Source: a virus
Direction: 5' to 3' (one strand)
Length of the DNA stretch: 28,926 nt
Virus record (IMG/VR): IMGVR_UViG_3300029309_000238
Coordinates: 321-29,246 of that record
The position numbers and the translations under genes were made by a program. The notes beneath the pieces were generated by a model. The model saw only the letters and a program-made list of their open reading frames with translations. It did not search any database and was not told where the DNA came from. Below are positions 30 through 27,176 of the stretch, piece by piece (position 1 is the stretch's first letter; each line of letters opens with the position of its first letter).

Positions 30-338
30 TTAAAAGGGCAAATCATCTTCAGCAGGTGCTGCTGCTTTTTCTGTTGTTGCACCATTAACATTTACTGCCC
101 AAGCCAATATATTATTGTAGTAGTTGCCCTCATATAAACGACCTCTAATATCAATCTTACAAGTGACATCAGTTCCTATTTTAATAGAACCTATCTTGTC
201 TATGTTGTCTTTTACAACCTCCATTTTGATTGATTGAGGATAATCTCCCCCTGTATTTACTACAAATTCTCTTTTCTTAAATCCGCTTTTAAATTCTTTT
301 GTTTCAAATATAGCTTCTAACTTTCCGTTAATTTCCAT
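30..338 (-). CDS. DUF3127 family protein, SSB-like, with acidic DDLPF tail
   Basis: This is a 102-residue protein. Residues 1-85 match the DUF3127 pattern I know from Bacteroidetes: a start like MEINGKL, then KREFVV, YPQSIKMEV, IGTDVTCKIDIRGR and a final aromatic strand. That order suggests an OB-type beta barrel. After a short Ala-rich linker it ends in DDLPF, very like the acidic tip of bacterial SSB (DDDIPF), which recruits replication and repair proteins. I infer a single-stranded DNA binding role at the phage replication fork. It is the last complete gene of the 2.03-0.03 kb operon, and its start overlaps the end of the DnaA-like gene by 11 bases. The family match is strong; the biochemical role is inferred. 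Confidence 0.75.
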   Translation of the reverse strand: MEINGKLEAIFETKEFKSGFKKREFVVNTGGDYPQSIKMEVVKDNIDKIGSIKIGTDVTCKIDIRGRLYEGNYYNNILAWAVNVNGATTEKAAAPAEDDLPF

Positions 339-741
339 CTTTTAATAATTTTAGTTCAATTTCTATTTGTTCCAACCTATTATCTAATAAGTTTTTCTCT
401 TTTTTAAGTAGGTACAGTTCCTCTGATAGTGTCACTTCACTATTTTGTTCAAACACATAATCTCTAACCTTTATATAGTTTGTCATTTCTGTTTTATCAA
501 ACTCCAAAAAGTTTGTCATTTGTGTTATATGATATATTGCGGTTGCATGATTCATACTAAACATCTTTGATATTCCTTTGTATGTTTCTCCATAGTGCTT
601 TCTTAAAAAATACAAAATCATTCTTCTTGCACTAACTATCTCTCTTCTACGATTAAGACTAAATAATTCATCTTCACTAACTCCATATGTTGAGCATACT
701 GCTTTTTTTAAAGCATTTCTTCTCTCATCACTATTTAACAT
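328..741 (-). CDS. Stand-alone DnaA domain IV (DNA-binding) protein
   Basis: This 137-residue protein carries the C-terminal DNA-binding domain of DnaA without the AAA+ ATPase. Residues 10-72 show the family's features in order: VCSTYGVSEDELFS, then RRREIVSARRMILYFLRK (the basic-loop helix, usually ..R.R.iv.pRqiamYL), then YKGISKMFSMNHATAIYHI. NHATAIYH corresponds to the DnaA signature DHTTVLHA that contacts the DnaA box. Residues 105-135 form a Leu/Lys/Glu-rich coiled coil that could dimerise it. Lacking an ATPase, it may mark the phage origin or compete with host DnaA for its boxes. It overlaps both neighbours by about ten bases. The domain call is strong, the role inferred. Confidence 0.75.
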   Translation of the reverse strand: MLNSDERRNALKKAVCSTYGVSEDELFSLNRRREIVSARRMILYFLRKHYGETYKGISKMFSMNHATAIYHITQMTNFLEFDKTEMTNYIKVRDYVFEQNSEVTLSEELYLLKKEKNLLDNRLEQIEIELKLLKDGN

Positions 742-961
742 AATTTATCATATTTAAAAGTTCTATATCTCCAACATCTTGATTCTTAAACTCATCAGCA
801 TTAGCCAATAGTTGTAAATGCTTGAGCCTTAACATTGTAGGGTTTTCTAAGTATTTTGTAACACTTGTTCCCTGTAATCCTGTTACTTCACTAAATCTAC
901 GCTTAGTCATTCCTGTTACTCTAACGAATTTTTCAAACTCATTTTTTGCTATCTTTTTCAT
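731..961 (-). CDS. Small Cro/C1-like helix-turn-helix protein
   Basis: This 76-residue protein has a probable helix-turn-helix in residues 15-45 (MTKRRFSEVTGLQGTSVTKY), followed by a helical segment (LRLKHLQLLANA) as in lambda-Cro-like domains. It is probably a DNA-binding regulator, although the recognition helix is not a clear match to any one family. Its last codons overlap the ATG of the DnaA-like gene, so the two are translationally coupled. A small regulator beside an initiator-like protein would suit control of early expression or replication, which is inference. There is no integrase nearby, so a role as lysogeny repressor is not supported. Confidence 0.5.
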   Translation of the reverse strand: MKKIAKNEFEKFVRVTGMTKRRFSEVTGLQGTSVTKYLENPTMLRLKHLQLLANADEFKNQDVGDIELLNMINYVK

Positions 962-969
962 AATTAATT

Positions 970-1170
970 TTATTTTACTATTTCTAATTCAATTTCAAAT
1001 TCTGATAAATATGCTTGTTTGATTTTTTCATCTGACATTTGCATATATAAATCTATAAATGTTTTACTTAGTCCTTTAGGTGTTTTTTTATTATCAATCT
1101 TTCCTATTTGACTTCTAGTGATTGAAACTATTGCACCTTCTTTTGTCATTACGTGTTTTCTTATTGCCAT
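970..1170 (-). CDS. Hypothetical protein, 66 aa
   Basis: I do not recognise this gene. It encodes 66 residues, basic in the first half (MAIRKHVMTKEG, KIDNKKTPKG) and acidic and helical at the end (SEFEIELEIVK). The start overlaps the stop of the 1161-1397 gene by ten bases and the spacing to the next gene is eight bases, so it is a co-transcribed member of the operon. There are no cysteine pairs, membrane segments or catalytic motifs. It could be a small DNA-metabolism accessory factor, but only its position suggests that. Confidence 0.5.
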   Translation of the reverse strand: MAIRKHVMTKEGAIVSITRSQIGKIDNKKTPKGLSKTFIDLYMQMSDEKIKQAYLSEFEIELEIVK

Positions 1171-1397
1171 CTTTTTGCCATTTTATTAAATTGTTCTCTA
1201 GGGTCTTTTGATACAAAATCATCTTTTAGCTTGTTAATTAATAAATATGCTTCTTGATATGTTAAATGTAAAAGACCTGTTTCAATATCTTTTATTTCAT
1301 CTTGTTCATACGGAACACCTGTCAGCAAACCCTCAATAATAGCCATTTGACTATTACTGATAGGTTCACCTGCAAGTATTTCGTCTATCCAATCCAT
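1161..1397 (-). CDS. Hypothetical acidic protein, 78 aa
   Basis: This 78-residue acidic, helical protein has no motif I recognise. The segment SNSQMAIIEGLLTGVPYEQDEIKDIE followed by LTYQEAYLLINKLKDDF reads as a run of short amphipathic helices, and the C-terminus (EQFNKMAKRW) is basic. Its ATG shares the stop region of the upstream 1397-1792 gene (TAATGG), and it overlaps the next gene by ten bases. That tight coupling to a possible annealing protein makes a partner role plausible but unproven. Confidence 0.55.
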   Translation of the reverse strand: MDWIDEILAGEPISNSQMAIIEGLLTGVPYEQDEIKDIETGLLHLTYQEAYLLINKLKDDFVSKDPREQFNKMAKRWQ

Positions 1398-1792
1398 TAA
1401 TCAGCCATTTCATCTTGACCAAATACACCCTGCTCATAAAATCCTGTAAGCATTAATACTGCTCTTGATTTGGCTCTTTTCTCTGCCATAGCCACAGGAA
1501 ACTTACCCGCAAGACCCATAGTGTTTTCTTTACTGCTTTCCCCAAAAGACTCTACCCTCTTTTGACCATCTGACATTTCACCAACACATCTAAGCACAAC
1601 CCAATCTTTTTCCATAACTATTGGTTCATAAGACAATCTAATACCACGATTACTTACAATCTTATCAATTCCTGTTCTAGTGATAATAACAAAACCTCTT
1701 TTGTCTTTATACACATCTTCTTGTACTAGACCATTCTCTGTGAATAGTCTGCGTAAACTTTCTTTTTTAGTTTCTGTTTTAATTTCTGACAT
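1397..1792 (-). CDS. Possible ssDNA annealing/recombination protein (Rad52/Sak-like), tentative
   Basis: This is a 131-residue soluble protein. The second half has two strands (YEPIVMEKDWVVLRCVG and KRVESFGESS) followed by NTMGLAGKFPVAMAEKRAKSRAVLMLTGFYEQGVFGQDEMAD. The order of a beta sheet, a Gly-rich turn, then a helix with a K-R-A-x-x-R-A core and an acidic end resembles phage single-strand annealing proteins of the Rad52/Sak group, where the equivalent helix is A.KRA...A. The match is by pattern only and the protein is shorter than typical Rad52 cores. Its place in an operon with an SSB-like and a DnaA-like protein supports a DNA-metabolism role. Proteins of this type are often left as hypothetical. 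Confidence 0.35.
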   Translation of the reverse strand: MSEIKTETKKESLRRLFTENGLVQEDVYKDKRGFVIITRTGIDKIVSNRGIRLSYEPIVMEKDWVVLRCVGEMSDGQKRVESFGESSKENTMGLAGKFPVAMAEKRAKSRAVLMLTGFYEQGVFGQDEMAD

Positions 1793-1803
1793 AATAATAT
1801 TTA

Positions 1804-2034
1804 TTAAAGTAGGTTAATATAAACTCTTAGTTCTTTTAGGGTATCTATATCGCAAAGTCTTGCTGATATTCTACCATTTGCCCATTGTTGCAACTCTTTA
1901 TCACCTGAATTAGCATAGTCTATCTCAGACTCCTCATCTCTAGATAATAATGTTTTTAGTAAATTTATCTTGCTATCCAAAAGGAAAAGAACCTCTCCTT
2001 TTTTTAAAGTTGATACTTTTGATTCTTCTGACAT
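1804..2034 (-). CDS. Hypothetical protein, first gene of the DNA-metabolism operon
   Basis: This 76-residue helical protein is not recognised. It has a basic N-terminal part (VSTLKKGEVLFLLDSKINLLKTLL), an acidic middle (RDEESEIDY) and a Leu-rich end (CDIDTLKELRVYINLL). It is the promoter-proximal gene of the operon that runs to base 30. The ATG lies 29 bases after the promoter box TAACTTTG, leaving room for a leader. The next gene starts 12 bases downstream. Confidence 0.5.
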   Translation of the reverse strand: MSEESKVSTLKKGEVLFLLDSKINLLKTLLSRDEESEIDYANSGDKELQQWANGRISARLCDIDTLKELRVYINLL

Positions 2035-2063: not shown

Positions 2064-2094
2064 CAAAGTTAGTAAATAAATTTAAACTACCAAA
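2064..2094 (-). promoter_or_regulatory. Bacteroidetes-type promoter for the 2034-30 operon
   Basis: On the minus strand TTTG (2094-2091) is followed after 19 bases by TAACTTTG (2071-2064), a perfect match to the Bacteroidetes -7 consensus TAnnTTTG with the expected spacing. The start codon is 29 bases further on, so the predicted transcript has a leader of about 25 bases, unlike the leaderless promoters of the structural genes. Confidence 0.65.
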
Positions 2095-3035: not shown

Positions 3036-3425
3036 TTATTTTTTAATTTTTTCGTAAGACCTGCCGCCAAAGTATGCACCAAAGCAAGTGATAGCCAAAA
3101 TTTGCCATAGGTCAATCCAAGAATCTTTTATATCCATATCTACATACCCAAAGTCAACTAAGGTAAATATAGTTAGCACAACCATCAAGAAAGCTAATGT
3201 AAGCGGTCTAATGGACTTTGTAAGCCAATTACCATTCATATCTGCTTCCCAACGCTTTGTTACCTCTAACTGCATCTTTTGTTCATAATCTAAAACATAC
3301 TTTTTTATTTCAGACTTTATAATTTCTTTTTCTTCTGCTGAGGTATGTATCTTATCAATAGCATTTCCAACTGAATTAACTAATTCACTAGCACCACTAC
3401 TAAAAATTTTACTAAAAATACTCAT
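3036..3425 (-). CDS. Holin (3TM family)
   Basis: This 129-residue protein has a soluble helical N-terminal half (residues 1-60, with EEKEIIKSEIKKYVLDYEQKMQLEVTKRWEAD) and two clear hydrophobic stretches in the second half: PLTLAFLMVVLTIFTLVDF and WQILAITCFGAYFGG. The junction NGNWLTKSIRPLTL is typical of the holin_3TM family (gene-transfer-agent release holins), which permeabilise the inner membrane at lysis. It is the last gene of the lysis cassette. It is separated from the DUF5675 gene by a 50-base hairpin repeat rather than overlapping it, so its expression may be controlled separately. The terminator at 2941-2960 follows it. Confidence 0.75.
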   Translation of the reverse strand: MSIFSKIFSSGASELVNSVGNAIDKIHTSAEEKEIIKSEIKKYVLDYEQKMQLEVTKRWEADMNGNWLTKSIRPLTLAFLMVVLTIFTLVDFGYVDMDIKDSWIDLWQILAITCFGAYFGGRSYEKIKK

Positions 3426-12903: not shown

Positions 12904-13221
12904 TTATCTTATATTGTAGTCTTTATGAAACTTTCTTTTGTGCTTATAGATAATATTTTGTATTGTTCTTTCTGACACATCATACTTTATAGATATATCC
13001 ATATATGTAAATGTGTAGTTATTTTCATTGGACTTTAATATTTTATCAAAATCCTGTATTATCATATAATCTCTAATTTTTCTTGGCTCTATCAAACCTT
13101 TTTCGGCAAGATGATTTAGTACATTTTTTATACCCGCTTCTTCAGAGTATTTAGCTTTAACCTGATTGTATATTACATCTATAAACTCTTCTACAATCTT
13201 AGCATTATTTTGCCTTATCAT
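12904..13221 (-). CDS. Small helix-turn-helix protein within the structural region
   Basis: This is a 105-residue, largely helical protein. Residues 70-98 (FTYMDISIKYDVSERTIQNIIYKHKRKF) make a clear helix-turn-helix with a basic recognition helix and tail. The first 60 residues are a helical domain (IVEEFIDVIYNQVKAKYSEEAG, then VLNHLAEKGLIEPRKIRDYMII). The start is the ATG at 13221; an earlier TTG is in frame but lies within the -7 promoter box. It has its own leaderless-type promoter and stands between the tape measure and the protease promoter. It is a candidate regulator of late genes, for instance of the TGCGA promoters; that is inference. Confidence 0.6.
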   Translation of the reverse strand: MIRQNNAKIVEEFIDVIYNQVKAKYSEEAGIKNVLNHLAEKGLIEPRKIRDYMIIQDFDKILKSNENNYTFTYMDISIKYDVSERTIQNIIYKHKRKFHKDYNIR

Positions 13222-13224
13222 ATA

Positions 13225-13256
13225 CAAATATACTAAAAAGAAGCCTGACTTTCAAT
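13225..13256 (-). promoter_or_regulatory. Leaderless-type promoter of the HTH gene
   Basis: ATTG (13256-13253), 20 bases, then TATATTTG (13232-13225), a perfect -7 match. Only TAT separates the box from the ATG, so the mRNA should begin at about the start codon. The promoter lies in the last codons of the tape measure gene. Confidence 0.65.
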
Positions 13257-26553: not shown

Positions 26554-26557
26554 AACA

Positions 26558-26589
26558 CAAAACTAAATAAAATAACAATAATATACAAA
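26558..26589 (-). promoter_or_regulatory. Leaderless-type promoter of the terminase operon
   Basis: TTTG (26589-26586), 20 bases, TAGTTTTG (26565-26558), then TGTT and the ATG. This is a perfect match to both consensus boxes. The hairpin repeat copy B ends six bases upstream of the -33 box, close enough to affect polymerase binding. Confidence 0.75.
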
Positions 26590-26595
26590 TAGCTT

Positions 26596-26645
26596 TATCT
26601 TTAGCTTTATTATGTAGGGTACAGCATACCCTTCACATACCCTTA
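26596..26645 (-). repeat. 50-base hairpin repeat, copy B
   Basis: It aligns without gaps to 3443-3492, about 40 of 50 bases identical: TAAGGGT, AAGGGTA, a five-base loop, TACCCT, then ATAATAAAGCTAAAGATA. The stem (26616-26632) is a perfect six pairs. No T-run follows. It lies just upstream of the terminase -33 box, which suggests an operator rather than a terminator. Confidence 0.6.
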
Positions 26646-26646
26646 G

Positions 26647-26878
26647 TTATAAAATAGACTTTTAAAATTTTTTATAATTTTTTTTGACCCCCATTTTTGA
26701 TTTTATATATACATTTTACCTTTTTTCGTAATACTATTGCGAAAGATTGTGTTTTTATTTTACTAACTTGCGAACTTTCCTAGCAACGCTGATTAAACGT
26801 ATCCCAAAAACAACATATTGATTAGTAATTATAATACTAAAAATAATATCATCTAATTATAAAATTGACTTTAAAATT
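26647..26878. repeat. Pair of imperfect direct repeats
   Basis: 26647-26669 and 26857-26878 share TTATAAAATwGACTTT(T)AAAATT on the plus strand, differing by one base and one T. They frame most of the non-coding region, 210 bases apart. In such AT-rich DNA a chance origin is not excluded. Confidence 0.45.
26724..26744. promoter_or_regulatory. Inverted repeat, possible protein-binding site
   Basis: Two ten-base arms, TTTCGTAATA and TATTGCGAAA, flank a single C; nine of ten positions pair. An extra TTGCGAA half-site lies at 26768-26774. The dyad symmetry suits a dimeric DNA-binding protein. No product is assigned. Confidence 0.4.
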
Positions 26879-26912
26879 GTTGTGCTAATATAGATGTGCA
26901 TAAGTAACCCCG

Positions 26913-26927
26913 CGTCATATATTGACG
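26913..26927. promoter_or_regulatory. Inverted repeat CGTCA/TGACG
   Basis: CGTCA, five bases, TGACG: perfect arms in a GC-richer patch of the AT-rich region. It is too short for a terminator and has no T-run, so a binding site is more likely. Chance is possible. Confidence 0.3.
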
Positions 26928-26995
26928 GTATTATAAAAAAAAGCTATTTTTTAACACAATAACATGTATTTTTTTAACTTTTTGCAGGTAATTAT

Positions 26996-27039
26996 AAAAA
27001 AAAAGGTGTAAAAATTGGCAATTTGCCGACCTCTACACC
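26996..27039 (-). terminator. Rho-independent terminator of the 28.8-27.1 kb operon
   Basis: On the minus strand GGTGTA and TACACC close a hairpin that holds an inner GGCAA/TTGCC stem, and the outer stem is followed at once by nine T. It lies 30 bases after the stop of the 35-residue gene. This is the strongest terminator in the window. Confidence 0.85.
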
Positions 27040-27068
27040 ATTAAAAAAGTCTTTTAAATACTTAAATC

Positions 27069-27176
27069 TTAGCCAAAAAGGTATTTAATTACCTTGTCAA
27101 TAAGCAAAAGAATTGACCCCAAAAAGATAACAAACGCGCTTAGAGTGTTATCTTCTAGCCTTTTTTTATTACTCAT
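27069..27176 (-). CDS. 35-aa single-TM peptide
   Basis: This short frame starts at an ATG inside the last codons of the 27169-27387 gene and ends just before the terminator. It reads as a basic N-terminus (MSNKKRLEDN), one hydrophobic stretch (LSAFVIFLGSILLLIDKVIKYLF) and a final Gly. It is a typical small membrane peptide, unnamed. Coupling to the upstream gene and the terminator directly after it support that it is a real final cistron. It might act in superinfection exclusion or membrane targeting, but the sequence does not say so. Confidence 0.5.
   Translation of the reverse strand: MSNKKRLEDNTLSAFVIFLGSILLLIDKVIKYLFG

Follow-up and report, generated by a model that had tools for sequence, protein, structure and literature searches.

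A free DnaA domain IV with a predicted coiled-coil tail in the early operon of a marine Bacteroidota-type phage

The window analyzed here (G000:C1:321-29246; 28,926 nucleotides) comes from a marine Bacteroidota-type phage and covers nearly the whole of a 29,246-base IMG/VR record, with a 10-base N gap immediately 5′ of its start. The record ends just past an SSB-like gene, the next 320 bases holding the start of a PDDEXK nuclease gene. At this end of the window lies an early operon with the following features:

328-741, minus strand: DnaA-domain-IV-only protein of 137 aa, here called DnaA_C (ORF; PF08299 E 6e-15; fold match to 3pvp and 1j1v)
442-726, minus strand: domain IV fold, residues 6-100 (Pfam, AF2 fold match and contact-residue mapping)
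523-711, minus strand: Pfam HTH part, residues 11-73 (PF08299)
334-441, minus strand: C-terminal helix, residues 101-136, a predicted coiled coil with L/I heptads (AF2 secondary structure; heptads from sequence)
30-338, minus strand: DUF3127/phage SSB-like protein (PF11325 2e-24, phrog_4932 7e-25); its first 11 bp are shared with the DnaA_C gene
731-961, minus strand: Cro-like HTH protein (weak HTH_3 match, E 0.016; phrog_4779 E 4e-4; synteny); its last 11 bp are shared with the start of DnaA_C
970-1397, minus strand: two small conserved early-operon genes, 970-1170 and 1161-1397 (ORFs, conserved order)
1397-1792, minus strand: c4, a conserved early protein of 131 aa whose gene is better conserved than any other in the operon (ORF, conserved order, identity comparison)
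1804-2034, minus strand: c7, the first early-operon gene (ORF, conserved order)
2064-2094, minus strand: Bacteroidota-type promoter (TTTG ... TAACTTTG) 5′ of the early operon (c3-c7 spacer alignment; kept in most relatives)

We take the promoter upstream of c7 to be of the Bacteroidetes TTG/TAnnTTTG type.

The DnaA_C ORF runs from 741 to 328 on the minus strand, and the plus-strand translation of the same interval has stops throughout. Its product matched Bac_DnaA_C (PF08299) with 55.4 bits against a cut-off of 31.5 (E 6.1e-15, residues 11-73) as well as phrog_27829 (E 2.9e-6), and a profile of the family found solved DnaA structures at E 1e-6. The NHATAIYH signature occupies residues 64-71. 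DnaA domains I-III, the ATPase domain among them, are absent: the 137-aa ORF has space for domain IV and the tail only, and the protein scores just 37-47 bits where the equivalog models of full DnaA demand 344-657. These results bear out the first-pass annotation, which had described a protein that keeps domain IV and its NHATAIYH helix, has no ATPase domain, and lies beside an SSB-like DUF3127 protein and a Cro-like protein. In our scan these neighbors matched DUF3127 (E 2e-24) and, weakly, Cro/HTH_3 (E 0.016). As judged from its sequence and the structural model described below, DnaA_C is a real, conserved, and well-folded domain-IV-only protein.

An AF2 model built from a 16-row alignment reached a mean pLDDT of 88. 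Upon comparison with known structures, it overlaid the DNA-binding domain (DBD) of Mycobacterium tuberculosis DnaA (3pvp) with Z 15.1 over 95 residues at an rmsd of 1.7 and that of Escherichia coli DnaA (1j1v) with Z 14.7 over 93 residues at an rmsd of 1.6, whereas unrelated HTH folds gave Z 7 and below. Since residues 6-100 overlay the DnaA DBDs, a complete domain IV is present, beyond the HTH alone; a comparison of this kind had been suggested earlier as a check on the domain assignment, and its outcome is in agreement. Domain IV is followed by a single helix, residues 101-136, with the heptads L105-L112-L119-I126-L133 and L109-K116-L123-L130. These Leu/Ile heptads support the coiled-coil reading of the C terminus already made in the first-pass annotation, and the search with the family profile gave a weak match to designed coiled coils. 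The tail would be expected to dimerize the protein. When searched alone, the tail retrieved just the same DnaA_C family, so it did not turn up attached to other kinds of protein. In closer relatives the stretch NYIKVRDYVFEQNSEVTLSEEL (window 352-480, residues 88-130), running from the final domain IV helix on into the coiled coil, is conserved more strongly than the HTH; this junction is likely a protein-protein interface.

To map DNA contacts, we compared DnaA_C with the E. coli domain IV sequence, checked by its numbering and in agreement with the 1j1v alignment. The contact-equivalent residues are R31, R39, R47, H65, and T67. In E. coli numbering, Arg at 399, Arg at 415 (Lys in E. coli), His at 434, and Thr at 436 are found in all 22 relatives compared, and Arg at 407 in 21 of 22, with Lys in one. 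Position 435 is Ala in 22/22 relatives and likewise in both of the host DnaAs from Bacteroidota used for comparison, and position 433 is Asn, His, or Asp. Because the contact residues are kept, DNA binding is likely, through a reading head that would resemble that of host DnaA. DnaA_C shares both the domain IV fold and the DNA-contact positions of bacterial DnaA (1J1V, 3PVP), whereas bacterial DnaA also has domains I-III, an ATPase, and a DnaA-box array, which the phage protein and replicon lack.

Relatives of DnaA_C occur in 37 viral contigs at 55-96% identity, far beyond chance, and in seven further contigs at about 40-47%. Among 84,980 bacterial and archaeal genomes there were no close relatives, giving the family no host or prophage link. 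Mean pair identity is 52% for DnaA_C as compared with 84% for c4, 78% for the SSB, 73% for c0, 61% for the Cro-like protein, and 53% for the PDDEXK nuclease. From the alignments, such fast divergence around fixed base-contact residues would fit a specificity factor with a changing partner or site, in phage or host. The gene order is kept: metallophosphoesterase, c7, c4, c0, c13, Cro-like, DnaA_C, DUF3127 SSB, PDDEXK nuclease, c18, and c5, followed by c11, c8, c14, c16, the HTH protein c17, a WYL_2 protein, DUF7178, TerS, and TerL, with c5 and the genes beyond it known from relatives only. Individual contigs deviate from this order by losses or insertions; the position of the DnaA_C gene is constant in every relative long enough for checking.

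Downstream of the SSB, relatives carry the PDDEXK nuclease and, further on, c5. The C-terminal part of c5 has a weak match to a DnaD-like helicase-loader PHROG (E 0.0013) and is ∼36-65% identical to phage proteins, some of them annotated as replication initiation protein or DUF4373. Its AF2 model, with a pLDDT of 48, was too poor for use. The N-terminal part of c5 (L036:9474-10145) is 58.5% identical to a stretch of Pseudanabaena phage Pan5 annotated as HNH endonuclease/hypothetical, and is perhaps a DNA-binding domain that a replication protein shares with a homing endonuclease. Among the early genes scanned, none was recognized as encoding a polymerase, primase, or helicase.

We then considered signals of a replication origin. 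The exact box TTATNCACA occurs twice in the window's genome (two expected) and 0-1 times in G001 and G002, two relatives that are nearly complete, with no cluster; DnaA boxes with one mismatch likewise occur at chance frequency, unclustered, in the phage genomes. Permuted patterns give similar counts, so we claim neither enrichment nor depletion of DnaA boxes. An iteron search of the phage genomes yielded no array, and GC skew is monotonic without an origin signal. A lambda O-like origin within the DnaA_C gene was rejected, as synonymous conservation in this gene is highest at codons 93-107 (0.86), a value that other genes equal (0.85-0.87); the conserved last codons of the gene are explained by the overlap with the SSB start. 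Marking of the phage origin through DnaA boxes is therefore unsupported: boxes are at chance, no iterons were found, and relatives encode a DnaD-like protein downstream. Of the first-pass interpretation, the identity as a domain-IV-only protein stands, as does its early context linked to replication. DnaA_C could plausibly mark the phage origin.

Proteins of the domain-IV-only kind are already known and annotated in isolated flavophages, where short proteins are labeled DnaA or replication initiation protein (gp53 of Polaribacter phage Freya, gp40 of Polaribacter phage Danklef, gp36 of Tenacibaculum phage Gundel, and gp13 of Cellulophaga phage phi19:3); the publication on Freya, Danklef, and Gundel makes no mention of DnaA in its main text. 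In unrelated flavophages (Freya gp53, Gundel gp36, phi19:3 gp13, Arctus) the protein lies 1-7 genes from a helicase-loader-type replication protein. The flavophage orphans of Freya, Danklef, Gundel, and phi19:3 (PHROG 27829) are also domain IV only, at 130-150 aa with an extra C-terminal stretch, and likewise sit in the replication/recombination module of Bacteroidota phages. Similarity to DnaA_C is, however, confined to the domain. DnaA_C differs in being followed by a DUF3127 SSB gene and in having a long helix with heptads as its tail, and in its family a DnaD-like protein was seen but no DnaC loader. An extra short domain frame besides dnaA was found in 13 of 395 sampled Bacteroidota genomes (about 3%). 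Among 15 orphan loci on chromosomes, a raw count of at least 9 have genes for replication, recombination, or Mu-type transposition next to them, with neighbors that include a replisome organizer and primase-helicase (L187), DnaB (L190), and DnaC (L193, L199). Two INPHARED matches, MT839331 and MT838945, were rejected as full-length host-type DnaA genes on bacterial contigs. Bacteroidota genomes also hold DnaA domain IV fused to DUF7768 and DUF4406, beside DnaC-type loaders (L193:4857-5468, L199:4670-5269).

Since its place beside replication genes is constant, a role in phage DNA replication, as an accessory or in origin recognition, is our first-ranked explanation for DnaA_C, held tentatively at a probability of roughly 0.45. 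It builds directly on the fold, the DNA-contact residues, the operon shared with an SSB gene, and the repeated occurrence of such genes within the replication modules that unrelated phages and prophages carry; in the loci examined, start/stop overlaps that join DnaA_C to the SSB gene and the Cro-like gene speak for it as well. The target site and partner proteins, like DNA binding and dimerization, are predicted. In this proposal, DnaA_C would be made early, bind DNA through DnaA domain IV, and dimerize by its coiled-coil tail, and it would sit at phage origin DNA as a sequence-specific recognition or loading accessory. From there it could assist the DnaD-like c5 and the SSB in recruiting both host DnaB helicase and the host replisome to the phage genome. 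By analogy, lambda O/P-type modules likewise encode a DNA-binding protein in an early operon together with SSB/recombination genes, and further downstream a helicase-loader-like protein, although there is no sequence relationship and no iterons were found inside the phage DnaA_C gene. Speaking against a replication role is that the searches above gave neither a DnaA-box array nor iterons nor another origin signal in the DNA, that the phages already have another candidate initiator in c5, itself a weak assignment, and that the best-studied domain-IV-only protein is a transcription activator.

That protein is GafY of Caulobacter, formerly HdaB, a DnaA domain IV homologue that binds and activates GTA promoters with IHF (PMC9632790, PMC11150451, PMC9638019). 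The name HdaB came from replication effects that later authors attribute to GTA activation (PMC9632790), and the DnaA-like N terminus of GafA is required for activation (PMC9638019). Both have the same domain-IV-type DNA-binding domain without an ATPase, in a phage-derived element. This precedent, which the first-pass interpretation omitted, suggests that DnaA_C could be a phage transcription regulator whose DnaA-type HTH binds 5′ of early or late phage promoters and contacts host RNA polymerase, a possibility we rank next and consider somewhat unlikely. A phage activator probably exists, given a late-promoter-like element with upstream repeats before TerS and a holin-like gene. In front of TerS, a conserved non-coding region (window 26554-27168, minus-strand sense; L202-L234) contains GAAGGGTA repeats and AAAGCTAAAGATAAAGCTA as well as the palindrome TTTCGCA-N7-TGCGAAA. 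One 26-mer of it recurs exactly in 34 contigs, 63-88 bases before the start codon where readable, and the gene behind it is TerS in some contigs and holin-like in others. The element is likely a late promoter with an activator site, and perhaps also a packaging site. A DnaA-box-like column before TerS was rejected, with 17% of permuted patterns equally good. However, the upstream repeats are near-identical where DnaA_C has diverged to about 45-56% identity, so DnaA_C is a less likely candidate for the activator. Moreover, the phage has further HTH proteins (c17, window 12904-13227), and DnaA_C sits with replication genes in most lineages seen. GafY is paired with the sigma-like GafZ and IHF in alphaproteobacteria, a different phylum, whereas no such partner was seen here: the operon neighbors scanned, several of them small and without a family, gave no sigma-like or DUF6456 match.

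Interference with the host, the next explanation in our ranking, is improbable. Here DnaA_C would occupy host DnaA boxes, at oriC or at DnaA-controlled promoters, and block or divert initiation, freeing the replisome for the phage. The first-pass annotation had raised such a block, and its support is indirect, in that the predicted base-reading residues are those of Bacteroidota DnaA: the equivalents of E. coli R399, R407, K415, H434, and T436 are kept, and 435 is Ala as in the two host proteins. Phage genomes with no more DnaA boxes than chance are in line with this, and divergence faster than that of most operon neighbors would suit an adaptive interface, but it also fits a changing phage target, and domain IV alone is without the cooperative assembly of full DnaA. 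Slightly harder to credit is a specific version in which the zipper-dimerized free DBD competes with host DnaA at boxes, host initiation is turned off, the phage starts DnaA-independently via the DnaD-like route, and divergence reflects host adaptation. Least probable is a degenerate or structural DnaA leftover that does not bind DNA, its C-terminal helix being kept as a protein-protein adaptor, e.g., for SSB or c5. Although the junction of domain IV and coiled coil is the most conserved part of the protein, a non-binding remnant would lose the contact residues, which are nearly invariant in the 22 members down to about 40% identity.

Free DnaA DNA-binding domains thus recur across Bacteroidota phages and prophages, and a literature search found no functional test of them in this phylum. 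The characterized relatives found are alphaproteobacterial only, and were read first as replication regulators (HdaB) and later as transcription activators (GafY). A conserved, fast-diverging family beside SSB and helicase-loader-like genes would let the replication and transcription readings be tested directly; should DnaA_C bind DnaA boxes, it would represent a new phage route for controlling host initiation.

Neither Rfam families nor tRNAs were found within the window. The 33,585-base contig G001 (L065+L066) has 15-base identical ends with an ORF running across the join, and seems to be complete, closing by end overlap. The early region carries variable cargo in relatives, including a PAPS-reductase-like gene (L036:10745-11596), a weak M42 peptidase match (L032:5337-6389), and a GP88 domain protein (L012:10419-11258). 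Lastly, a small membrane protein at window 3036-3425 with a weak GTA_holin_3TM match (E 0.0038) is a probable holin.
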